From: a virus
Virus record (IMG/VR): IMGVR_UViG_3300042992_001156
Location: 1-23,313 of that record
Length of the DNA: 23,313 bases
Reading direction: 5' to 3' (one strand)
In this document: piece by piece, positions 439-23,313 of the stretch
Layout: each line of letters starts with the position of its first letter
How positions within the stretch are numbered: position 1 is the first letter of the stretch
Position numbers and translations under genes: made by a program
Notes under the pieces: model-generated
Databases searched by the model: none
What the model saw: only the letters and a program-made list of their open reading frames with translations
Told to the model about the DNA's origin: nothing

Positions 439-795
439 ATGTCTATCAAGATCTGTCGCAAATGTAAAAAAGAAAAAGACATAATTGAATTCCCTTTTTT
501 CTCTACGAACGATGCTGGCCGCAAAAACACATGCAGATCGTGTAATAATGAACTCAGTAATTTGCGCCGAAACCTACGCGCCCAGAACCGCCCACCTATT
601 GCTGGGCCATGCCCCATCTGCAAAAATCACACAACAACTTGGATATTAGATCATTGTCATTTTGACGATACATTTCGCGGATATATATGCAACAGTTGTA
701 ATTTAGGCATTGGGCGATTCAATGATGATATATCTATTCTCTATAACGCCATAGAATACCTGAACACGCAAAATAATATACAATACCATATATGA
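439..795 (+). CDS. endonuclease VII-type HNH nuclease
   Basis: A 118-residue protein of the recombination endonuclease VII family, a His-Me-finger (HNH) nuclease fold. In T4 the family member gp49 cleaves Holliday junctions and branched DNA. Visible here: an N-terminal zinc-knuckle-like part (C6, C9, C32, C35), then a second zinc site made of CPIC (C58, C61) and CNSC (C84, C87) around the catalytic motif LDHCH (D71, H72, H74), followed by RGYICNSCN and a short helical tail. This order is typical of the family. Its stop overlaps the next start (ATGA), so it is co-expressed with the epimerase gene. Local GC is higher than in the genes after 1591. It may be a junction resolvase or a free-standing homing-type nuclease, and the sequence does not separate these. 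Confidence 0.8.
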   Translation: MSIKICRKCKKEKDIIEFPFFSTNDAGRKNTCRSCNNELSNLRRNLRAQNRPPIAGPCPICKNHTTTWILDHCHFDDTFRGYICNSCNLGIGRFNDDISILYNAIEYLNTQNNIQYHI

Positions 796-1601
796 GAATA
801 TTGATTACTGGTGGCAGCGGCTTTATTGGCACCCATTTAATAAAAAAACTATCTAATGACGGACATGACATTTATAATTTGGACAAAATTAGCAGCCCCG
901 CACTCCCGCCCGACAAACAAAAGATAATAGATATCTTAGATATCGACGTTAACGATATCTTTTTCGATAATATAGACACTATTATACATTTAGCTGGTAT
1001 GGTGAGTGTACCGAAATCATTTGAAGATCCAATAAATAGCTTTGGTAATAATACGTTCTGTACTATAAAATTATTATCAGCCGCCCACCTTCATAAGATT
1101 AAGAAATTCGTCTTCGCTTCTAGCGCAGCGATATATGGCAGTAAAGAAGGTACGGTAAGTGAAACTGATGCCGCCGAACCTAACAGTCCATACGGATTAG
1201 ATAAGTTAGCCTCCGAAAAATACATACAAATGTATTGCCAACAATGGGGTATCGATTATTTAATATTTCGCTTCTTCAATGTGTATGGTGAAGGACAGAA
1301 TCCGCAATACGCTGGAGTCATAACGGCATTTAATGTCGCCGCTCAGAAAAAAGAGCCGCTGATCGTTTATGGAGATGGTGAACAGACTAGGGATTTCGTC
1401 AGTGTTAACGATGTGTGCAGTTATATTTCTAAACTAATTATTACTATGGTTAAGAATGAGATATTTAACATTGGAACCGGCAAATCTGTTTCTATAAACT
1501 CACTTGCAAAACAATTCGGTAGCCATATAATATACAACGAAGCGAAGAAAGAAGTCCGCCACTCATGCGCGAATATCAATAAATTAAAAAATGTCATCTA
1601 A
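792..1601 (+). CDS. NAD-dependent sugar epimerase/dehydratase, C-terminally short
   Basis: An extended short-chain dehydrogenase of the UDP-glucose 4-epimerase (GalE/WcaG-like) group, which interconverts or dehydrates nucleotide sugars using bound NAD. The Rossmann motif GGSGFIG is at residues 7-13, the catalytic serine region FASSAAIYG has S110/S111, and the catalytic pair YGLDK is Y134 and K138. RDFVSVNDV and NIGTG are typical of the substrate-binding half. The protein has 269 residues against roughly 310-330 for the family and stops in INKLKNVI, which matches the DISKAKxxLG helix, so the last 30-40 residues are missing. The end overlaps the next gene by 11 bases, where base composition also drops. 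Start is ATG at 792, overlapping the previous stop. Sugar specificity cannot be told, and it may be inactive. Confidence 0.85.
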   Translation: MRILITGGSGFIGTHLIKKLSNDGHDIYNLDKISSPALPPDKQKIIDILDIDVNDIFFDNIDTIIHLAGMVSVPKSFEDPINSFGNNTFCTIKLLSAAHLHKIKKFVFASSAAIYGSKEGTVSETDAAEPNSPYGLDKLASEKYIQMYCQQWGIDYLIFRFFNVYGEGQNPQYAGVITAFNVAAQKKEPLIVYGDGEQTRDFVSVNDVCSYISKLIITMVKNEIFNIGTGKSVSINSLAKQFGSHIIYNEAKKEVRHSCANINKLKNVI

Positions 1602-2526
1602 AAAAATATTAGTTAAGATATATGCATCTGGAATGGGAGATGCTTTATTATCAACGCCAGCTTTAAAAAAATTGTCTTCTTTTTATCATGATAAATCTTT
1701 ATCTGTTAAAACTCTACATCCCGATCTGTTTAGAAATAACCCTTATATTGAGGAGGTAATAAGTTTAGATAAAGATTTTGATGAAACTGATTATGAGGTT
1801 TTTAAAATATATAAAAATCATGAAAGAAAACATCACGCTTGTTATTGTGCCAGAAGTTGCGCTTATGATTTAGGTTTTGATTTAACAAGCGATGAACTTA
1901 GTCTTGATTTTTATCCAGATTCACAATCAATATACGAAATTAATAAATTAAATAATTATATTTGCTTACACACCACATCTAATTGGAAAAATAGAACATG
2001 GAGCGAAGAAAATTGGAAAAAACTAATATCATTACTACAAAATACTGATTTAAATATCGTATTAATTGGAAAAGATTATGAAGAGGTTTATTTTGATGGT
2101 TCTGTTTGCAAAAAAAGATGTTTCGAAATAAATGGTAGAAATATAATTAATTTTACCAATGATGGTAGTTCTATACATGATTTATGGCATTTAATAAATA
2201 ATTCTAAAGGCATAGTAACTATAGATTCAGGTCCATTACATTTAGCCGGAACGACGGATACATGGATTTTCCAGATAGGATCAGCAAGGCATCCTGAATT
2301 TGTAGCTCCATATAGAAATGATAGTCAAAATTACAAACATGAATATATTGGTGGAGAATGCAAAGCTTTTTGCGCCAGTAATTTAAAATATACAGTCAAA
2401 GAATGGAAAACAATTAGAGCCGCGCACTTCCTAGCGGAATGCCAAGAAAATTATTCTGAAATGAAATGTCATCCTACTGCCGAATCAGTATTTAATAAAA
2501 TAATTGAAAAGTTAAATTTAATATAA
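1591..2526 (+). CDS. glycosyltransferase family 9 (heptosyltransferase-like)
   Basis: A 311-residue GT-B glycosyltransferase of the GT9/ADP-heptose:LPS heptosyltransferase family. The N-terminal signature GMGDALLSTPALKKL (about residues 14-28) matches the GDxxxxTPxL motif of the family. The second half has a typical nucleotide-sugar region: ICLHTTSNWKNRTW, IVLIGKDYEE, and DSGPLHLAGT with D212, S213, G214, P215 and H217. The C-terminal part holds several cysteines (CKAFC, then two more), as seen in iron- or disulfide-containing relatives. The ATG lies inside the end of the epimerase gene, and A/T-rich DNA replaces an SD site. GC content falls sharply from here to about 8300. It probably adds a sugar to a lipid or protein acceptor, but the donor sugar is unknown. 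Confidence 0.8.
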   Translation: MSSKKILVKIYASGMGDALLSTPALKKLSSFYHDKSLSVKTLHPDLFRNNPYIEEVISLDKDFDETDYEVFKIYKNHERKHHACYCARSCAYDLGFDLTSDELSLDFYPDSQSIYEINKLNNYICLHTTSNWKNRTWSEENWKKLISLLQNTDLNIVLIGKDYEEVYFDGSVCKKRCFEINGRNIINFTNDGSSIHDLWHLINNSKGIVTIDSGPLHLAGTTDTWIFQIGSARHPEFVAPYRNDSQNYKHEYIGGECKAFCASNLKYTVKEWKTIRAAHFLAECQENYSEMKCHPTAESVFNKIIEKLNLI

Positions 2527-2536
2527 ATATTTTAAA

Positions 2537-5500
2537 ATGAATTTATTAGTAATTACGCCTCATTTGTCTACTGGTGGTTGCCCTCAGTATTTATTAGAAT
2601 ATCTAAAGTATAATGGATTTCAATACACAAATATAAAAGTCATAGAATTCAGCAACTTTTCGAACGAATATGTTGTTCAAAAAAATAAGATCAAATCTTT
2701 AATTGGTTCTAAAAATGTTATTTGTTTAGGCGATTTTTGGGTTAGCGACGAACAATTTAAAAATGATAAGCTTAAGTTATTAGATATTATATCGTCTTAT
2801 AAGCCTGATGTTATTTGGTTTAATGAGTTTCCTGAATGTTTCGAATATAAATCGCCACCGAAAGAATTGATGGTTCAGATATACGATAAAAATAGATCTT
2901 ATAAAATAATTGAAACAACTCATAATAACAGTTTTGATTTTAACTGCAAAATTTATTTGCCAGATGAGTTTATGTTTTGTTCTGAGTTGCATATTGAAAA
3001 ATCAAAGGATTTAAATATTAAAAATATAATCTGGGAAATACCAATTGGTAATAACATTAGACCAGATAGACAAATTGTTTTAGAGTCTCTAGGTCTAGAT
3101 TCAAGTTATTTACACATTTTAAATGTTGGAATTATAAATCAGAACAAAAATCAAAAATATATATTTGAATTAGCTGAAAAATTAAAATTTTATAAAATAA
3201 AATTTCATTTTATTGGTAACACTTGTTTTTTAAATGATTGTGGTATTCCTGTCGATCACTTAAAACAAGATAATTGTATTATGTGGGGTGAACGCTCTGA
3301 TGTGGATGTTTTTATGTCTTGCATGGATTTATTTTTATTTCCATCTCATAAAGAATTAAATCCTTTGAGTGTGAAAGAAGCTTTGTCGTGGAATATGGAT
3401 GTTGTTTGTAAAAAATGCGACAATTATACTTATAAATACGTTGATAAATCAAATTTTCATTTATTAGAGAATATAAAAATTAAAGATTATTTAATCAACA
3501 AGTTAAAAAACACCACTTCAGCAAAGCAAAATAAAAATAAAAATAAATATAAGAAATTCGCTTTGTATACATCTTTTTATAATTGTTCTGATTATGTTGA
3601 TGGTATTTTTGATCAAATTTTAAATTTAAAATATAATAATTTTACATGGTTTATAACTGATGATTTTAGCGCAGACGACACTAAAGAAAAGATTTTAAAC
3701 AAATTAAAAAATATAAATAGTTTTAAAAGTATAAAATATGTAGACCAAGATTTTAAAAAACAGATGTATTGGAACCCTAATCATTTTATCGACAATAGTC
3801 ATGATTATATAGTAACTGTTGACGCGGATGATTGTTTTGATTTGAATTTTTTAAATATTTATAATAAATATTTAATAGCAGACGAATCCATTCATTTATT
3901 AAGTTGTGATTTTCAAAAAATAAATGAATCTAATAAAAATTTTCATTCCTTTGGTTTAATCAAAAACGATATACCATTAAAACAAAAAATTCAAAAATTT
4001 CATCCACAGGTCGATTATTTAAATAATTTAAATTATTACTGCTTTGGAGTATTGCGTTGTTTTAAAAATTCAGAAAAAATCAAATTTAATATAAGAGATT
4101 ATAACGCTTGTGGTGAAGATTCTTATCGTAGTATGTTTATGAATTCTTTTGGAAAATGGTTGCATATACCAAGAAATTTATACACATGGAATTTTAGGGA
4201 AAATTCAGAATCTCATTCCGTTAAAAATGATAATTTTAATAATAATTTTGATATTGCATATGAAGCTATAATAAATTCTGAATCTATTGTAGATAATCGT
4301 TTTGACATTTTTTATAAAGAGACTTCCGCTTTAAATTATTTAAATATAAATTTTGAAAAATCTATCTCTTTATTTTCTAAAACCCGCAACACAGATAAAT
4401 TAAAAGATTTATATTTTGATTTGAATATGGATTTTAACGATTTTTCTATACATGATTTTTATGTTATTGTTTTAAATGATTTCAACAGATATGAAATAAA
4501 AACAATTTTAGCTAAAATAAAAAATAAAGAAGCTTCTATTTTATTTTATAATTTAGTGGATGGTAATTATCCTTCTAATTCAGAAATGGATATTGCTATT
4601 GAAAACAAAAAAAATGACAATATGAATTTCTTAAATTCTATTATAGATGTTAAATCTTGGTTTACATATATAAGGCATTTTTATTTGACATGTAGTCTAA
4701 AGTCTAATTTCTCTTTAGATTTACCAGTTAATGATTTTATAAGAGTATTTAATTTTGATTCTGAAAATTGTAAAGTAGATTATGCCCTTAGCAATGGTTC
4801 ACCTGGAGAATATTTTATAAAAATATTAGATGAAAAAACCAATATGCTTTTGTATTGTGAAAAAGTAAAATTAAATAGTGGTATAAGTTATTGGACTTCT
4901 TTTTCTTTTTTCAAAAAAATAATTTACAATTCAGTTTTAATTGTTTTTGAATACGAAAAAACAAAAGTTTTTGAACAGAGTTTTTTAGTAAATGATGAAA
5001 TAACTTCGATAACTAAATTATTTGAAAAAGATTATTTCAAAAATCCAGTTGAAGCTTATTCTTATGTAGAAGTCTTTTGTCAAAATCAATATTCTAAAAA
5101 TGGAATTAGTGTCGAGGCTAATGATATAGTCGTGGATATAGGATCGAACGTTGGTGCATTTATAAAATTAGCTTTAATAAATAATTGTCAAAAAATATTT
5201 AGTTGTGAGCCTAACATAAATTGCGTATCAATTATAAATGAAAATTATGGTAAAAATAAAAATTTGATAATAAATAATTGCGCTATTTATGATAAAAATG
5301 GTGATAGTTATTTAGATATTGATCCACAAAATAACACTTCTGGCAGCGCAAAGTTAATAGACTCTGGCGCGTGTTCCTATACATATAAAAATAATATACA
5401 AATAAAGACCAAAACTTTCAAAAATTTCTTATCTGAAAATTCTATTTATAAAATTGATTTTTTAAAAGTTGATTGTGAAGGTGGAGAAGATTTCATCTTT

Positions 5501-7186
5501 ATTGATGAAAACAAACAATTTATAAAAGAAAATATCAATAAGATTGTTTTAGAAACTCATAGCGATTCAAAATTTAAAATCATAGAAATGTTAAAAGATT
5601 CTGATTTTGAGGTGATTGAAGAGAAAATTAATTCTTCAGTTTCTATGCTATATGCAAAAAAAATATCTAAAAACTGTTTAATCAATGTGGTGAATGAATC
5701 TGGTAGCCTAGGAGATGCAATCGCTTGGATACCTATAGTTAATGAATTTGCAAAACAAAATAAACAAAAAATTAATTTATTCACACCGTACAAAAATTTA
5801 TTTGAAGGTCAGTATGAATTAATAAATTTTTATGATTACAAGGATAAGCCGAATTCAAGTTCAGAACAAATTTATTATTTAGGATGTTTTGACGACATGA
5901 ATTGGAAAAAATATTCTTTGCAAGAAATAGCTTGTAAAATATTAGGTATAAATTATGTACCTATAAAACCTTTAATAAATTTACCTAAATCTAATAAAAA
6001 TATTAATTTTAAAAAATACGTTTGCATCGCTACGCAATCAACGAGTCAATGTAAATATTGGAACAATAAAGACGGATGGAATAAAACGGTAGATTATTTA
6101 AAATTAATAGGATACGATGTCATTTGTATTGATAGGTATTCAATTTATGGATCGCAGGATAAAGTTAATATTATTCCAAAAAATTGTATAAATGATACTG
6201 GTGATAAACCATTATCAGATAGAATACAAACTTTAATAGATTGTGAATTTTTTATTGGATTAGGTTCAGGATTGTCATGGTTAGCTTGGGCTTGTAATAA
6301 ACCAGTGATAATGATATCAGGATTTTCAGATCCGAAATCAGAATTTTATACTCCTTATAGAGTTCATAATAAAAATGTATGCAATAGTTGTTGGAATGAT
6401 GAATCGGTTCATTTTGATAGAAATGATTGGTTATGGTGTCCTAGAGGTAAAAATTTCGAATGCTCTAAAGAAATAACTTTCCAAATGGTTAAAGACAAAA
6501 TAGATTTATGTATAAAAGATAATAAAAATACTAATTTTAATATAAAAGCTGCTCATATTTTAGTTGATATAACAAGTGAAAGAGAAAAAAAATCTATTGA
6601 ATCTATGAGTGTTGTTCAAAATGATATAACATACATTCAATGCATTAATAAAAAATATGCGGGTGAAGAATGGAAAAAAAATGTTCCTATAAATGGTTGG
6701 CGAAATCATGGCGAAGGGCATTATGGAGCTTTTCAGTCTTTTAAAAAAGCTATATTAGAAAATTTCACAGAAGATACAGACGCTTTGTTGTTATTTGAAG
6801 CTGATTGCGTTTTAGAAGTCGATAAAGACTTTTTTTTAAAAAATGTACGCCAAGCGATTATTTTTTGCGAAAAACATGATTTACCTTATTTTTCATTTGG
6901 ACCAAGAGTTGTCAATAACCATATTGAATCAATAGAATTAAAAAAGGATTTTGAATATCCAGATTTCATAGTAACAAATAATATCATTGAGGCTCATTGC
7001 GTATTGATAACGAAAAAATATAGAAATTATATTTTCGATTGTTTAAATAATTCTTGGGATTCTCCTGATTTATGGTTTAATAAAATATTTGAGAAATATA
7101 ATATGGGTATAACTTTAAATCAATTGGCTTATCAAACATTAGGGCTTTCAATGATAGACAATTGCATCAAAGGAAAAATAAAATAA
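2537..7186 (+). CDS. giant fused glycan-modifying enzyme: GT4, GT2, FkbM, TibC-like GT9, GT-A
   Basis: A 1549-residue multi-enzyme. (1) Residues 1-330: GT-B, GT4-like, with TPHLSTGG near the start and an E-x7-E type motif in ELNPLSVKEALSW (272-290). (2) About 335-610: GT-A, GT2-like, with DADD at 429-432 and ED at 527-528. (3) About 610-840: a poorly recognised linker, probably beta-rich at its end. (4) 840-1043: FkbM-type SAM methyltransferase, with VVDIGSNVG (865-873) and KVDCEGGE (D979, E981, E984). (5) 1045-1330: GT9-like heptosyltransferase, with GSLGDA (1056-1061), GLGSGLSWLAW (1241-1250) and four cysteines C1282, C1285, C1301, C1309 as in TibC/Aah-type enzymes. (6) 1340-1549: a probable GT-A domain with HYGAFQSF and EAD (1421-1423), distantly GT25-like. 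No signal peptide or membrane span. The start has no SD. Domains 1, 2, 4 and 5 are firm; domain 6 is tentative. Confidence 0.8.
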   Translation: MNLLVITPHLSTGGCPQYLLEYLKYNGFQYTNIKVIEFSNFSNEYVVQKNKIKSLIGSKNVICLGDFWVSDEQFKNDKLKLLDIISSYKPDVIWFNEFPECFEYKSPPKELMVQIYDKNRSYKIIETTHNNSFDFNCKIYLPDEFMFCSELHIEKSKDLNIKNIIWEIPIGNNIRPDRQIVLESLGLDSSYLHILNVGIINQNKNQKYIFELAEKLKFYKIKFHFIGNTCFLNDCGIPVDHLKQDNCIMWGERSDVDVFMSCMDLFLFPSHKELNPLSVKEALSWNMDVVCKKCDNYTYKYVDKSNFHLLENIKIKDYLINKLKNTTSAKQNKNKNKYKKFALYTSFYNCSDYVDGIFDQILNLKYNNFTWFITDDFSADDTKEKILNKLKNINSFKSIKYVDQDFKKQMYWNPNHFIDNSHDYIVTVDADDCFDLNFLNIYNKYLIADESIHLLSCDFQKINESNKNFHSFGLIKNDIPLKQKIQKFHPQVDYLNNLNYYCFGVLRCFKNSEKIKFNIRDYNACGEDSYRSMFMNSFGKWLHIPRNLYTWNFRENSESHSVKNDNFNNNFDIAYEAIINSESIVDNRFDIFYKETSALNYLNINFEKSISLFSKTRNTDKLKDLYFDLNMDFNDFSIHDFYVIVLNDFNRYEIKTILAKIKNKEASILFYNLVDGNYPSNSEMDIAIENKKNDNMNFLNSIIDVKSWFTYIRHFYLTCSLKSNFSLDLPVNDFIRVFNFDSENCKVDYALSNGSPGEYFIKILDEKTNMLLYCEKVKLNSGISYWTSFSFFKKIIYNSVLIVFEYEKTKVFEQSFLVNDEITSITKLFEKDYFKNPVEAYSYVEVFCQNQYSKNGISVEANDIVVDIGSNVGAFIKLALINNCQKIFSCEPNINCVSIINENYGKNKNLIINNCAIYDKNGDSYLDIDPQNNTSGSAKLIDSGACSYTYKNNIQIKTKTFKNFLSENSIYKIDFLKVDCEGGEDFIFIDENKQFIKENINKIVLETHSDSKFKIIEMLKDSDFEVIEEKINSSVSMLYAKKISKNCLINVVNESGSLGDAIAWIPIVNEFAKQNKQKINLFTPYKNLFEGQYELINFYDYKDKPNSSSEQIYYLGCFDDMNWKKYSLQEIACKILGINYVPIKPLINLPKSNKNINFKKYVCIATQSTSQCKYWNNKDGWNKTVDYLKLIGYDVICIDRYSIYGSQDKVNIIPKNCINDTGDKPLSDRIQTLIDCEFFIGLGSGLSWLAWACNKPVIMISGFSDPKSEFYTPYRVHNKNVCNSCWNDESVHFDRNDWLWCPRGKNFECSKEITFQMVKDKIDLCIKDNKNTNFNIKAAHILVDITSEREKKSIESMSVVQNDITYIQCINKKYAGEEWKKNVPINGWRNHGEGHYGAFQSFKKAILENFTEDTDALLLFEADCVLEVDKDFFLKNVRQAIIFCEKHDLPYFSFGPRVVNNHIESIELKKDFEYPDFIVTNNIIEAHCVLITKKYRNYIFDCLNNSWDSPDLWFNKIFEKYNMGITLNQLAYQTLGLSMIDNCIKGKIK

Positions 7187-7193
7187 TTTTAAA

Positions 7194-7553
7194 ATGATAA
7201 ATCTTTTAGTAGATGAAGCGTATGCTTTTGATTATTTAAGCATACTTGAAATTAAAAAAAATATATCTTTAGCTAATGATAGATCTTGGTCTATATGTTA
7301 TTCATATTTACAATCTCAGTTTGATACTGAAAAATGGCAATCAATGATAAACTCTGATGAATATAAAAAAATGATAGAAGCTAATACTTTGACTTTTGAA
7401 GCGGTAGATAAAGCGAAAAAAAATCAAGTAACTGCAAGAGATGTGGATTTTTGCAATTATAAAAGATATGTAGCCAAGCAAAAATTTCAAATAAAATTTT
7501 TTAAAATTGATGTTTCAGAAATAAAAATCGGTTATGGCGAATACAATAAATAG
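7194..7553 (+). CDS. hypothetical protein in the glycan island
   Basis: I do not recognise this 119-residue protein. It starts MINLLVDEAYAFDYLSILEI, seems mostly helical, is rich in Lys, Asp and Glu, and has no signal peptide, membrane segment or clear catalytic motif. It starts 7 bases after the fusion gene and ends 6 bases before the LicD-like gene, so all three are likely transcribed together. The leader AATTTTAAA before the ATG closely resembles that of the fusion gene. Position suggests an accessory or scaffold role in glycan modification, which is inference only. Confidence 0.7.
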   Translation: MINLLVDEAYAFDYLSILEIKKNISLANDRSWSICYSYLQSQFDTEKWQSMINSDEYKKMIEANTLTFEAVDKAKKNQVTARDVDFCNYKRYVAKQKFQIKFFKIDVSEIKIGYGEYNK

Positions 7554-7559
7554 TTTTCT

Positions 7560-8318
7560 ATGAATGATTCAAAACAAACATACGTAGAAACCGCTAAATT
7601 TATACAAAATATATTATTAGAAAATAATATAAAATGTTATTTAATTGGCGGGGCTTTAATTAATGCTGTAAGAGATGAAGGTGTTTTAAAAACAGATGAC
7701 ATAGATTTTGCGATTATAAATAATGAAGATGAGTCGCAAATGGATAAAATTGTACCATTGCTTGAGAAATATTTATTATATTTTACTTGGAGTAGGAATC
7801 ATAATTTTTTATCGATATATCTGTATGGAGATAAAAATAAAAAAATTGATTTTTTTAAATTCTCTAAAAAATATTTAAATTATTATATGTATGATTTGAC
7901 TTGGATTCATGAAAGAATTAGTCATTTTCAAACCTTTAAAAAACAAGAGGTAATTTTAGAAAATAAAAATTTTCTTACCATGCATAGACCAGATTTATTT
8001 TTAAAAACAGTTTATGGAGACTATTTAACACCAACAAAAGAATATAATAATTTAAATGGTGGTAATACGGAGCATCTTCAAGAATGTGATTTTTATATAA
8101 ATACTCAAGATTTTAATGTTATCGACTTTCGCATAAACAATTTAAAATTTTTTTTTAACAAAATTAATGTCAAAACTAATTTAGAAAATATAGATAAAAA
8201 TAAGATTAATATTTTTGACGACAGTTATTACAATTATTTTGATAATAAAAAATATTTATTTTATAATGATTTTAAACAGTTTTTAATAAAAGAGAATATT
8301 AATTTTGATAATTTTTAA
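7560..8318 (+). CDS. LicD-family phosphotransferase-like protein
   Basis: A 252-residue protein of the LicD/fukutin group, a nucleotidyltransferase-fold family whose members transfer phosphocholine, ribitol phosphate or similar groups from CDP-activated donors to sugars. The fold signature is clear: LIGGALINAVRDEG (28-41) with G30 and G31, then TDDIDFAI with the metal-binding D47 and D49. The late motif LKTVYGDYLTPTKEY (about 148-162) is typical of LicD. The tail from about residue 185 is Asn/Lys-rich and not recognised. It follows the 119-residue gene closely, and its last 20 bases overlap the end of the cytidylyltransferase gene on the other strand, which could supply a CDP-donor. The exact group transferred is unknown. 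Confidence 0.75.
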   Translation: MNDSKQTYVETAKFIQNILLENNIKCYLIGGALINAVRDEGVLKTDDIDFAIINNEDESQMDKIVPLLEKYLLYFTWSRNHNFLSIYLYGDKNKKIDFFKFSKKYLNYYMYDLTWIHERISHFQTFKKQEVILENKNFLTMHRPDLFLKTVYGDYLTPTKEYNNLNGGNTEHLQECDFYINTQDFNVIDFRINNLKFFFNKINVKTNLENIDKNKINIFDDSYYNYFDNKKYLFYNDFKQFLIKENINFDNF

Positions 8319-8700
8319 TTATATTTTTTATTATATCTGAAGTGCATACATGACTAGTTCTATCTAGAAGTATTAATTTATTTTTACTTACTTGGTAGTA
8401 TTTTTTTATATACTCTTCTTTTTCTCGCCCAGCAAAAACGCAATCAGCGTTAAGCTTATAAAGTATTTCATCTGTAGTTACTAGATCAGCGTTTTCGTAA
8501 ATAACATCGACATATTTACAAGATTTAATAATTTCTAATCTATCATCATAAGATATAATTGGTTTTTTCTTATACGTCATAACTTGCTCATCGTTATGAA
8601 CGCCCACAATTAGTTTGTCGCAATTTTCTTTTATTCTTTTGAATAGATTTATATGACCTATATGAAATAAATCATAAACACCGTATGTATATGCTGTCAT
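8299..8700 (-). CDS. cytidylyltransferase (TagD / CDP-alcohol type)
   Basis: A 133-residue nucleotidyltransferase of the glycerol-3-phosphate/choline-phosphate cytidylyltransferase family, which makes CDP-glycerol, CDP-choline or a related donor from CTP. The HxGH motif is H13-I-G-H16 in YDLFHIGHINL, and full length equals that of TagD-like enzymes. The second signature, RTxGISTT in the family, appears as RTSHVCTSD from R114, so the usual Gly-Ile-Ser is changed to His-Val-Cys. That may alter substrate choice. Its ATG overlaps the stop of the upstream minus-strand glycosyltransferase (TCAT on the plus strand, ATGA on the coding strand), so the two form an operon. It converges on and overlaps the LicD-like gene, a plausible user of its product. 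Confidence 0.8.
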   Translation of the reverse strand: MTAYTYGVYDLFHIGHINLFKRIKENCDKLIVGVHNDEQVMTYKKKPIISYDDRLEIIKSCKYVDVIYENADLVTTDEILYKLNADCVFAGREKEEYIKKYYQVSKNKLILLDRTSHVCTSDIIKNIIKNYQN

Positions 8701-9743
8701 AATATTAAAGATTTAAAAATATATTCATAATAATCACATTGCTGCTTAATTATAAATCTTGAGTTAGCGTTTTTATAACAATTTTCAGGATTAATAATCT
8801 TATCTATGTTTTGAGTAGCGTAAATCATATCATTCGTAGTAGAACATCTTAATCCAGTTTCTCCTTGCAATACCGTTTCGGTAAAGCCGCCAAAATTTGT
8901 TGTAATCGTAGGCGTTCCTGAAAATTGAGCTTCAATAACCGTCCAGTTGCACGGCTCCATAAACAGCGAAGGGGCAAATAAAAATTTCGCATCGCTTAGT
9001 AAATTCATTCGTTCAATAGGATCGACGAATCCTGTGAATTTACAGTGTTTAGTTTCTTTAAGATTCAGTATGTTTGGCCCTGCAAATATAATATCTTGTC
9101 CGACATGATTGCATATATCATAAGCGAGTTGTGCGCCTTTTTCTTCTATAATCCTGCCTAAAAATAATGCTGTATTTGATTTTTCTTTTTTGTATATGAA
9201 GTCGTCAGGATTAAAGCCGGGATAAACAATATGTTCGCATCCTAATTCAACATGTGTTTTAGAATGACCATGCATTTTATGCATTTGACTATATGTTTCA
9301 AACATCTTGATTGGCGCGAACATGCTATCATAACCTATGCTTGGTTCTACTACTATAGCTTTATCATAAAAGTGTTTAACACATGGTTCATGCGCGAACC
9401 CAAACCAACATAATATAAATTCTTTATTTGATTTTATTCTTTTGTTTAACTCTGTAACACAATTGTCATTAAACACATTAACCGCTTTTGTATTAACGTT
9501 TTGATCAAAACCTTTAACCTTCCAATCATTTAAGTTGCCATAGCTATTAATTAATATATCATTATTAGTAACATTAATATGTTCTGTGCAATTAACAATA
9601 GAGTTTTCATGACCATAATGATAAACAGTATGACCTCTTTTAGTCATTTCGTCGCAAAACTTATAAACTTTTTGCACAAAAGCACATAATGAAACATCTT
9701 TTCTAGTAGGCGAGTAAGGAACGCTTAAACAGTGAAAAACCAT
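8697..9743 (-). CDS. glycosyltransferase family 4 protein
   Basis: A 348-residue GT-B retaining glycosyltransferase. The C-terminal donor domain begins near ALFLGRIIEEKGAQLA, passes through FTGFVDPIERMNLL and FAPSLFMEPCNWTVIEA, where E263 and E271 form the E-x7-E motif of GT4, and continues with SGTPTITTNFGGFTE. The N-terminal acceptor domain is less conserved and begins MVFHCLSVPYSP. It is the first gene of a two-gene minus-strand operon with the cytidylyltransferase. The start is 27 bases from the divergent PhoH-like gene, and on this strand TATAAATA precedes the ATG by 17 bases. The acceptor and sugar are unknown. Codon use is less extreme than in the fusion gene. Confidence 0.85.
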   Translation of the reverse strand: MVFHCLSVPYSPTRKDVSLCAFVQKVYKFCDEMTKRGHTVYHYGHENSIVNCTEHINVTNNDILINSYGNLNDWKVKGFDQNVNTKAVNVFNDNCVTELNKRIKSNKEFILCWFGFAHEPCVKHFYDKAIVVEPSIGYDSMFAPIKMFETYSQMHKMHGHSKTHVELGCEHIVYPGFNPDDFIYKKEKSNTALFLGRIIEEKGAQLAYDICNHVGQDIIFAGPNILNLKETKHCKFTGFVDPIERMNLLSDAKFLFAPSLFMEPCNWTVIEAQFSGTPTITTNFGGFTETVLQGETGLRCSTTNDMIYATQNIDKIINPENCYKNANSRFIIKQQCDYYEYIFKSLIL

Positions 9744-11639: not shown

Positions 11640-12710
11640 ATGTTAACAGACGAAAATAAAGCATTTATATTAAAGAAGATTAACGAAGGAATTCAAGATT
11701 ACGTCGTCCTCGCTAATCTACTTTATAATCGTGAAGATTTAACAGGTAGGTCTAAAGAGGCGAAACTTGTTAGGGATTTTCTTTTAACAACTGGATTTGT
11801 CAAAAAACAAGAAAAGCCAAAGCCCACACAAACAATAGAAATACTATCAAAAGAAAATTGCGAATTTATTGAACAAAACATTAAAACAAGAATAACTCCT
11901 AGGCAAGTAACAGAGTTAATATTTCATGAAAAATTTTTGGGCCTTGAAAACTTTAATATTTTTATTACACCTGAGTATAGAGCCGTTCAAAAATACATAA
12001 AAGAAAAATATCCTGATTATCTTGTAGATAACGAATCTGGAGTTGGCGACAAATATTCTGTTCCACGTTCAATCAGAACGGTAATCAATAAAGCGAATAA
12101 ATGGTGCGGCCAAAACATTTCTGAAGAAAAATTATCTTTGCAACATAGAAAATGGATGGAAAAATTATTAAATTATTTATCAAGTCCAAGATTTGTTGGC
12201 AATTACGACTCATACAATAGCTCTATAGATAAAGAATTATTTGAAGCAGAATTCGTGCGCTCTGTTTGGGATAAGCCTGACTTAACTGTCGATGAAATTA
12301 ATTTGTATATTAATGTTTGCATGGATTATATCAATCTAAGGCAGATCGATATTAAGAAGAATAAGATAAATGATATGTTCAATGAGACGCAGGATCAAAA
12401 GGACTTCACAATGCGTCTAACTGAGGTTCTTAAGACGATCTCTGAAGAATACAATCAGTGCGCTGGGCGCATAGACAAGAGTATTCAAAAGCTCAATGGC
12501 GAACGATCCAAGAGAGTAGAACAAACGCATCAGAAGAACGCTTCTATACTTAACCTTGTAGAGCTTTTTCAAGACGAACAAGAACGCAAAATGATGATTC
12601 AAATTGCCGATATGCAAAAGCGCACTATTAAGGAGGAGGCTGATCGTTTAGAGAATATGTCTTCATGGAAAGCTAGAATTTTAGGAATTTCTAAAGAAGA
12701 TGCTATATGA
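11640..12710 (+). CDS. candidate small terminase / DNA-binding protein
   Basis: A 356-residue protein not matched with certainty. The first 130 residues hold two similar units: one from residue 2 (LTDENKAFILKKI) and one from residue 69 (LSKENCEFIEQNI). Each is about 50 residues, mainly helical, and each ends in a charged helix (KEAKLVRDFL and PEYRAVQKYI). The middle is helical, and the C-terminal third (about 245-340) is a charged, coiled-coil-like stretch. Such helix-turn-helix plus coiled-coil designs, and the place 1.6 kb before the large terminase, fit a small terminase subunit that recognises phage DNA for packaging. The start is one base after the previous gene's end, and the stop overlaps the next start (ATGA). 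Confidence 0.5.
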   Translation: MLTDENKAFILKKINEGIQDYVVLANLLYNREDLTGRSKEAKLVRDFLLTTGFVKKQEKPKPTQTIEILSKENCEFIEQNIKTRITPRQVTELIFHEKFLGLENFNIFITPEYRAVQKYIKEKYPDYLVDNESGVGDKYSVPRSIRTVINKANKWCGQNISEEKLSLQHRKWMEKLLNYLSSPRFVGNYDSYNSSIDKELFEAEFVRSVWDKPDLTVDEINLYINVCMDYINLRQIDIKKNKINDMFNETQDQKDFTMRLTEVLKTISEEYNQCAGRIDKSIQKLNGERSKRVEQTHQKNASILNLVELFQDEQERKMMIQIADMQKRTIKEEADRLENMSSWKARILGISKEDAI

Positions 12711-13369
12711 TAAATCATAGTAAAAAATGGATGTTATATGATAACGCTTCTAAATCTTTTTATGCAAAAGATTTTGAAAATGTATTTAAAGAGCAAAACT
12801 ATTGGGATTATGATTTTTTTTATAAAGAAATTTATGATTTAGAATTTTCTCCAACTAAATGTATTTATGAAATGGATAGTTGCGTAATAGATGAAAATGA
12901 TGTTGTTGTCGATTTAGGAGCTAATGTGGGTTTTTTCACAAATTACGCTTCTCAAAAATGTAAAAAAGTAATATCAATCGAAGGTGGAGATGCGTTGTTT
13001 AGCTGTTTAGTTAAAAATACTTATGAAAATAATAATATAGAATATTTAAACGCAAACATTATTTCTGAAAACTCTTCTATTAATGGGTCTTGGGCAACTC
13101 CAACGAAAATAAACGTTACTATTTCAAATATTTTTGATTTTTATAAATTAGACTATATTGATTTTTTAAAAGTAGATATAGAGGGGGGTGAATATGATGT
13201 TTTTAGAGATATAGATAAAAACATCTTATCTAAAATAAAAAAAATAGCAATTGAAGTTCACGATTCAAATGAAAATAAAGAATTAATCAATAATATAAAT
13301 AAAAATAGATTCTTTTGTTTTAATTGGTTTTTAGGATCTACCGTTCAAACTACCTATTATTTTTCTTAA
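12707..13369 (+). CDS. FkbM-family methyltransferase
   Basis: A 220-residue SAM-dependent methyltransferase of the FkbM family, which O-methylates sugars and other small groups. The SAM-binding motif is VVVDLGANVGFF with D69, followed by the acidic ISIEGG strand end, and the family motif FLKVDIEGGE has D157. IKKIAIEVHD is a further conserved strand. It resembles the FkbM domain inside the fusion protein in both motifs and in the preceding helix, so the two are likely paralogues. It overlaps the preceding stop by four bases and is followed closely by the ERCC4-like gene. Its very AT-rich codon use matches the glycan island rather than the packaging genes around it, which suggests an inserted accessory gene. 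Confidence 0.85.
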   Translation: MINHSKKWMLYDNASKSFYAKDFENVFKEQNYWDYDFFYKEIYDLEFSPTKCIYEMDSCVIDENDVVVDLGANVGFFTNYASQKCKKVISIEGGDALFSCLVKNTYENNNIEYLNANIISENSSINGSWATPTKINVTISNIFDFYKLDYIDFLKVDIEGGEYDVFRDIDKNILSKIKKIAIEVHDSNENKELINNINKNRFFCFNWFLGSTVQTTYYFS

Positions 13370-22862: not shown

Positions 22863-23313
22863 ATGTCAAATATAGATGTCAACGTTTCCTCTAATAATAA
22901 TCAAATAAATGTAACTGTTGGAGGCGGATCTAATTCTACTGTTGTTGAAAGTAGTAATAAGAATACTATTTTAGTAGAGTCAGTTGCGCCAGCAGGATCA
23001 ACTAGTAATATTGTTGAAAGAGGACCGGCTGGCACTTCAGGAACTAGCGGTTCTTCTGGTACAAGTGGAAGTTCAGGCATTAACGGTACTTCTGGATCTT
23101 CTGGCGTAAATGGAACTTCAGGATCTAGCGGAACATCAGGCACTTCAGGAAGCTCAGGAACCAGTGGAACAAGCGGTTCTTCTGGTACAAGTGGAAGTTC
23201 AGGCATTAACGGTACTTCTGGATCTTCTGGCGTAAATGGAACTTCAGGATCTAGCGGAACATCAGGCACTTCAGGAAGCTCAGGAACCAGTGGAACAAGC
23301 GGTTCTTCTGGTA
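22863..23313 (+). CDS. collagen-like fibre protein, 3' end outside the window
   Basis: An open reading frame from the ATG at 22863 running past the window end, 150 residues visible. The first 55 residues are Ser/Asn/Val-rich and beta-like (MSNIDVNVSSNNNQINVTV). From ERGPAGTSG onward there are Gly-X-Y triplets such as GTS, GSS, GIN and GVN, as in phage collagen-like fibre and spike proteins that form trimers. Almost every X and Y is Ser or Thr. These have few prolines, so triplet stability would depend on other factors. The 126-bp DNA repeats inside it are listed separately. It follows the small beta-rich gene by one base. A fibre or virion-surface role is likely. The hydroxyl-rich repeat is a possible O-glycosylation target, which is inference. 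Confidence 0.8.
   Translation, partial: MSNIDVNVSSNNNQINVTVGGGSNSTVVESSNKNTILVESVAPAGSTSNIVERGPAGTSGTSGSSGTSGSSGINGTSGSSGVNGTSGSSGTSGTSGSSGTSGTSGSSGTSGSSGINGTSGSSGVNGTSGSSGTSGTSGSSGTSGTSGSSG
23046..23313 (+). repeat. perfect 126-bp tandem repeat in the collagen-like gene
   Basis: The unit starting AGCGGTTCTTCTGG occurs at 23046, 23172 and 23298, each 126 bases apart (42 codons, 14 triplets). Units one and two appear identical at every base, and the third runs out of the window after 16 bases. The absence of silent differences implies recent amplification or gene conversion, or an assembly artefact. Confidence 0.9.

Follow-up and report, generated by a model that had tools for sequence, protein, structure and literature searches.

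A five-module glycan-modifying phage protein with a TibC-type heptosyltransferase core, and the association of that core with Ser/Thr-rich collagen-like repeats

The window analysed here is a stretch of viral DNA of 23,313 nucleotides (IMG/VR record IMGVR_UViG_3300042992_001156, positions 1 to 23,313). Its feature of interest is a gene that encodes, in one frame of 1549 residues with no internal stops, five catalytic modules – GT4, GT2, FkbM methyltransferase, BAHT (TibC-type) and a C-terminal GT-A domain (Table 1) – an arrangement that an earlier note on this DNA had claimed from the letters alone. Genes for an epimerase, a second GT9 protein, a nucleotidyltransferase, a GT4 glycosyltransferase and an FkbM-like protein make up a small glycan island adjoining the packaging and capsid genes. 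The nearest terminase among named phages is only ~26% identical. A search of the PADLOC defence library gave no match, a promoter scan did no better than chance, and matches to PHROG were confined to the FkbM part of the fusion protein and the separate GT4 gene. Two ORFs that follow the fusion gene directly, 7194-7553 and 7560-8318, show no convincing family match and are kept in a related contig, L002; by eye the second appears nucleotidyltransferase-like (GGALINAVRD...DDIDFA).

Table 1. Features of the window, with module boundaries in the fusion protein and the evidence for each
Feature	Position	Strand	Evidence
NAD-dependent sugar epimerase/dehydratase	792..1601	+	PF01370 9e-56
Second, divergent GT9-family gene	1591..2526	+	PF01075 1.8e-12; BAHT-module profile 1e-39
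1549-aa multi-module glycan-modifying protein (whole gene)	2537..7186	+	ORF call; full-length relative L002:3452-8086
GT4 module, residues 1-330, E273-x7-E281	2537..3526	+	PF00534 2e-8; motif 35/35
GT2 module, residues 331-606, DADD 429-432 and ED 527-528	3527..4354	+	PF00535 5.9e-10; motifs
Non-catalytic linker region, residues 607-840	4355..5056	+	AF2 pLDDT 78; Foldseek; sequence support marginal
FkbM methyltransferase module, residues 841-1043	5057..5665	+	PF05050 6.6e-10, TIGR01444 4e-19; motifs
BAHT/TibC-type heptosyltransferase core, residues 1044-1330	5666..6526	+	TIGR04414, 4rap, residues
C-terminal GT-A domain, undescribed phage family, residues 1337-1549, E1421-x-D1423	6545..7183	+	AF2 pLDDT 92.8; COLGALT1 top structural match
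Cytidylyltransferase-like nucleotidyltransferase	8299..8700	-	PF01467 3e-20; below cut-offs of matched NCBIfam equivalogs
Separate GT4 glycosyltransferase	8697..9743	-	PF00534; phrog_3408 glycosyltransferase 2e-63
Separate FkbM-like methyltransferase, judged by similarity	12707..13369	+	L002 ortholog L002:13586-14254 vs FkbM module, E 5e-6
Gly-X-Y collagen-like protein, Ser/Thr-rich repeats, ended by contig end, candidate acceptor	22863..23313	+	84% Ser/Thr at X/Y

L002 is a separate IMG/VR contig that encodes a 1544-residue counterpart with six regions in common and the gene order also kept. Because the full-length protein is present in this independent contig, an assembly artefact is excluded. 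Comparison of the two genes gave dN/dS values of 0.08 for GT4, 0.26 for GT2, 0.13 for BAHT and 0.17 for the C-terminal module, and these modules are thus under purifying selection; in the FkbM module dS was saturated, and for the linker (residues 607-840) the ratio was 0.64. Sliding-window identity to L002 is 88-98% in GT4 and falls to 56-68% across most of GT2, and the GT2 module is equally close, or closer, to two other relatives (L009 and L011): the shift suggests recombination at module boundaries.

The earlier note had proposed that each part be searched separately. Four modules were identified by Pfam and NCBIfam, and the fifth by an AlphaFold model that matches GT-A enzymes; catalytic motifs are conserved across relatives in all five. 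In the GT4 module, residues 183-297 match PF00534 at 34.4 bits (curated cut-off 26.4), and both glutamates of the E-x7-E motif (E273/E281) are kept in 35/35 relatives. The match of the GT2 module to PF00535 (residues 346-472) scores 39.8 bits against a cut-off of 23.3; D-x-D-D is kept in seven of seven relatives and the catalytic-base motif ED is present. For the FkbM module (match over residues 865-1021) the scores are 39.8 bits for PF05050 (cut-off 22.7) and 69.3 bits for TIGR01444 (cut-off 37.7), and the SAM-binding and acidic motifs (D867, E981, E984) are kept in 28-29 of the 29 rows with letters at these positions.

Between GT2 and FkbM lies a non-catalytic region, residues 607-840, which the note's list – sound for the five catalytic modules – had overlooked. 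Its model (pLDDT 78) consists of a partial alpha/beta first half, with weak Foldseek matches to SAM methyltransferases, and a beta-sandwich second half, whose matches include the N-terminal barrel of TibC. Residues 726-832 are tentatively a TibC-type barrel on the basis of the model; assignment from sequence alone was rejected as marginal (≤8.5 bits). The BAHT core itself has no adjoining barrel, its TIGR04414 match starting at model position 81, and a barrel parted from the core through insertion of the FkbM module is plausible. L009 is without the second half of the linker: BAHT comes directly after, and FkbM stands at the C-terminus.

The note's identification of the fourth domain as TibC-like, with four cysteines, was borne out. 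Residues 1045-1323 score 282.6-287.3 bits against TIGR04414 (Aah/TibC), for which the NCBIfam equivalog cut-off is 200; PF01075 (GT9) matches above its curated cut-off, the best solved relative is TibC (4rap, E 1e-59), and TIGR02193, a model of the LPS heptosyltransferase type, scores just 19 bits. The catalytic base and ADP-heptose contacts of TibC are D110, T226, K230, R286 and W305 (PMC4358343); in the window protein the catalytic Asp and the four ADP-heptose-binding residues tested are all kept, as D1060, T1169, K1173, R1229 and W1248, together with all four iron-finger cysteines (C1282, C1285, C1301, C1309). Among phage relatives the catalytic Asp is found in 65/65 and the four cysteines in 66/67. 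The adenine-contacting Arg is variable, being present in 30/67 only, and sugar donors may therefore differ between phages. At the position that bears on ligand and stereoselectivity – Pro300 in TibC, Ser294 in AAH – the window protein has Gly.

No sequence match for the last 213 residues was found in Pfam, NCBIfam, PHROG or PDB. A model built on an alignment of 26 relatives is nonetheless confident (pLDDT 92.8), and its best PDB matches by Foldseek are GT-A glycosyltransferases, with human collagen galactosyltransferase COLGALT1 on top (E 9.6e-8; TMq 0.60-0.72 among its entries). The E-x-D motif is kept in 35/35 relatives. Given this GT-A-like model, all five catalytic domains are present. We do not file the domain as GT25, since the resemblance is at the level of fold: PF01755 (GT25) matched one of 26 family members at a non-significant E of 0.038. 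With GT25 enzymes such as COLGALT1 it has in common the GT-A fold and a similarly placed acidic E-x-D motif, yet identity is ~13%, and the domain constitutes a family of its own, apparently undescribed and phage-restricted; in a pattern-limited scan no bacterial relative could be confirmed. As a stand-alone gene of ~222 residues the domain occurs in about 30 large phage contigs. Among 23 records, 20 of them picked via loci of this domain, 17 carry BAHT above cut-off, in several cases distant in the genome. The stand-alone homologues of contigs L034-L063 lie at a conserved place (~8000-8670) among large aquatic phages of one lineage, and the same neighbourhood holds a protein starting MCGIFINIDGETS (cluster c3), asparagine-synthetase-like by eye.

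The earlier note regarded the fusion as exceptional. Profile searches, with one profile per module, show instead that fusion of several modules is usual in this family of phage genes: relatives of 1003-1634 residues carry the modules in many orders, some of them duplicated (Table 2). The five-domain gene is one state of a shuffling module set. The note had named related genomes with separate genes as a possible refutation: the full-length fusion recurs in L002, whereas more distant relatives have separate genes, and the pathway therefore needs no covalent linkage. The note's idea that a glycan could be built with no release of intermediates is conjecture; variable module order and the split versions argue against a strict assembly line or obligatory channelling.

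Table 2. Module arrangements among the window protein and its relatives (BAHT', divergent GT9 copy; C, C-terminal GT-A domain; link, linker region)
Arrangement	Where found
GT4-GT2-link-FkbM-BAHT-C	window, L002
GT4-GT2-link-FkbM-BAHT (without C)	L011/L012
GT4-GT2-link-BAHT-FkbM	L009/L010/L029
BAHT'-FkbM-GT4-BAHT	L014, 1634 aa
BAHT'-FkbM-GT4 + GT2-BAHT, two genes	L008
BAHT'-GT4-BAHT	L018/L019
GT4-BAHT	L016/L017
GT4-C-FkbM	L064
GT4-C	L003, L065
BAHT'-GT4-BAHT-C	L069
GT4-BAHT-FkbM	L328, 1527 aa
GT4 and BAHT as fully separate genes	L021-L028

The divergent second GT9 (1591-2526 in the window; the N-terminal copies of L014, L018, L008 and L069) often accompanies BAHT or is fused with it; in the BAHT tree the divergent copies of L008, L012-L014, L018 and L019 share a very long branch apart from the rest. 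Bacterial members are organized differently from those of phages. In the best 80 bacterial loci, 88 of 89 BAHT ORFs are without other modules (mostly 350-550 residues), the lone exception being a BAHT-FkbM protein in L462. In the tree, 38 of 40 bacterial rows make up one well-supported clade, and phage rows many deep branches. L462 and L531, the two bacterial rows that do not join this clade, come from exactly the two loci of the best 80 that bear Gly-Ser/Thr repeats: for both reasons these contigs probably represent phage or prophage DNA that binning assigned to bacteria.

Such repeats are also found in the window, where a Gly-X-Y collagen-like gene lies 15.7 kb from the enzyme gene. A longer version of its product is encoded in G023 (L458:4574-6127), and this repeat protein recurs with close relatives of the window enzyme (G023, G025); the fusion genes of other phages, among them megaphage LR756501 and Microcystis phage Mel-JY01, likewise have such repeats nearby. 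In Mel-JY01, a culturable phage, the gene is of 1227 aa and includes a BAHT module, with G-S/T-S/T repeats on the DNA around it. After the collagen-like gene of G023 comes one for a 3820-residue protein (L458:6184-17646) with an uninterrupted G-[T/S/A]-[S/T] run of 255 residues. PF01391 (collagen) matches four of the five repeat proteins scanned from other phages, and in two of these four the tail-fibre chaperone Peptidase_S74 is present as well.

The association was tested in reverse, starting from 50 contigs (mostly longer ones) picked solely by the pattern (G-S/T-S/T)7. Controls were 50 phage contigs picked by a PhoH-type P-loop pattern and 42 contigs with Pro-containing collagen repeats. 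Repeat and control contigs alike were the first among the matches listed, a non-random selection unmatched for habitat, and most records were fragments. BAHT was found above cut-off in 23/50 repeat contigs, compared to 1/50 P-loop contigs (Fisher P = 7e-8) and 0/42 Pro-collagen contigs (P = 4e-8); the other 27 repeat-bearing records, most of them partial like the rest, have no BAHT over the cut-off. Records of 20-100 kb alone gave 14/38 against 0/31 (P = 6e-5). The (G-S/T-S/T) repeat itself was present in none of the 50 P-loop contigs. GT2, taken as a control for specificity, showed no link to the repeats (16/50 vs 11/50, P = 0.37). Clustered at 60% identity, BAHT domains from the repeat contigs form 19 groups: the association thus does not come from one clade. 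Repeat ORFs are also close to BAHT genes: 12 of the 20 regions examined have one within 3 kb, where ~4.7 would be expected if each record held one randomly placed 8-kb repeat block (P = 1.5e-4). Proximity was assessed at 3 kb because adjacency within 100 bp (5/20 vs 2.8 expected) was not significant.

As for the acceptor, on which the note made no proposal, the association favours a Ser/Thr-rich, collagen-like protein of the phage's own virion as the candidate. The modular enzyme probably acts on collagen-like fibres of the virion, where it would prime an O-glycan, build it up and cap it with methyl. Hydroxyl groups of Ser/Thr in the fibre protein's Gly-Ser/Thr-Ser/Thr repeats would receive a heptose, or a related ADP-sugar, from the BAHT module; extension of this first sugar would fall to the GT4, GT2 and GT25-like modules, in an order that is a guess; and the FkbM module would O-methylate the glycan. 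Fusion would keep several of these steps on one multivalent acceptor, and tethering to so repetitive a substrate would be a milder reason for fusion than channelling. Glycosylated Ser/Thr may in turn stabilise or shield a triple helix free of proline. The starting points are observations – the modules and their conserved motifs, the full-length relative, module shuffling, and the genomic association of BAHT with the repeats – and from them we infer donor identity, acceptor, order of steps and effect on the virion as the best explanation. Several points weigh against it: 27 of the 50 repeat contigs lack BAHT above cut-off, albeit mostly as fragments; 15.7 kb separate enzyme gene and repeat gene in the window; TibC acts on beta-helices rather than collagen helices; Gly replaces Pro300; and the contig sets were neither random nor matched for habitat.

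A first alternative is that the enzyme modifies a surface polysaccharide of the host (LPS or O-antigen) and so blocks superinfection, as is generally proposed for glycosyltransferases of aquatic phages. The epimerase, second GT9 and nucleotidyltransferase genes of the locus form a set that occurs also in LPS/O-antigen loci. For pelagimyophage glycosyltransferases, modification of the host surface against superinfection is the published interpretation (PMC7029224). Against this, the GT9 module is of the TibC type (287 bits) rather than the LPS heptosyltransferase type (19 bits to TIGR02193) and keeps the iron finger; nor does modification of LPS predict a tie to Ser/Thr-rich collagen repeats, a tie that GT2 does not show. 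We regard this alternative as unlikely. Somewhat more doubtful still is a role in glycosylating other virion proteins, such as capsid or tail tube, with the link to repeats reflecting shared phage lineages or habitats: capsid and tail tube of mycobacteriophages are reported to be glycosylated (Freeman et al. 2023, cited in PMC12619734), and the window gene stands upstream of packaging and capsid genes, but the association spans 19 divergent BAHT clusters, is absent from Pro-collagen phages and is accompanied by physical proximity.

That the fusion is mostly decaying, with some modules (the linker, perhaps FkbM) mere remnants and one or two of the five reactions performed, is improbable: the linker has a high dN/dS (0.64) and its first half resembles a partial methyltransferase fold, yet all five catalytic modules keep their motifs and the four for which dN/dS could be estimated lie at 0.08-0.26. 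Glycosylation of phage DNA bases, for which the precedent is that phage glycosyltransferases can hypermodify DNA (cited in PMC12619734), can be set aside almost entirely, since BAHT enzymes are protein-Ser/Thr transferases and no base-hypermodification gene was seen among the annotated ORFs of the window.

O-glycosylation of collagen-like fibres by the window enzyme, the reading that we prefer, resembles several known systems in part. The closest in sequence is the BAHT family itself (TibC, AAH; TIGR04414), of which the window module keeps the core, the catalytic Asp, the four ADP-heptose-binding residues and the four iron-finger cysteines. TibC hyper-heptosylates autotransporters (PMC4358343). 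The differences are that sampled bacterial members are almost all single-domain, whereas the window core sits inside a five-enzyme fusion, has no adjoining barrel and carries Gly at the Pro300 position; and that the acceptors of TibC are autotransporter beta-helices, while the candidate acceptor associated with the window enzyme is collagen-like. In C. difficile, the collagen-like protein BclA3 receives a priming O-GlcNAc on Thr from SgtA, whose gene is immediately upstream of bclA3: here too a transferase gene adjoins a collagen-like gene, and the sugar, O-linked to Thr/Ser of G-X-Y, is extended further (PMC7157674). That system differs in that priming falls to a GT-A O-GlcNAc transferase distinct from the enzymes that extend the glycan, its repeats are Gly-Pro-Thr, and it belongs to a bacterium, not a phage. 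Mimivirus, a virus of amoebae, has an enzyme that hydroxylates and glycosylates lysine. Like the window protein, this collagen hydroxylase/glycosyltransferase is a virus-encoded multi-domain enzyme, and it acts on virus-encoded collagen (PMC8968730), but its enzyme families are unlike those found here. Phage-encoded transferases also decorate the virion in mycobacteriophages, where in contrast it is at the C-termini of capsid and tail-tube proteins that modification is reported (Freeman et al. 2023, cited in PMC12619734). Our literature search found no paper with a title or abstract reporting a link between phage BAHT and collagen glycosylation.

A broader reading, which we put forward tentatively and with less confidence than that for the window enzyme, is that O-glycosylation systems, modular and dedicated to proline-free Gly-Ser/Thr-Ser/Thr collagen-like fibres, are carried by many aquatic phages. 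In such a system the phage branch of TibC/BAHT would prime, domain shuffling would diversify the enzymes into polyenzymes, and glycosylated Ser/Thr would replace proline/hydroxyproline, giving a stable or shielded viral collagen. Glycosyltransferase genes abound in phages, and their usual annotation, modification of LPS or DNA, is guesswork. An enzyme-acceptor pair whose association holds against controls offers a testable function both for a class of aquatic phage genes and for the common, unexplained Gly-Ser/Thr repeat proteins; it also brings to light a phage glycosyltransferase family, so far undescribed, whose fold is GT25-like, and glycan pathways that evolve by shuffling whole enzyme domains, both between and within phage genes. 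Synechococcus phage DSL-LC02 (L006:4362-6515) has a different combination, a fusion of FkbM with a radical SAM/SPASM protein. Collagen-like and tail-fibre genes flank the block in which it is encoded, which is possibly a parallel fibre-modification locus.
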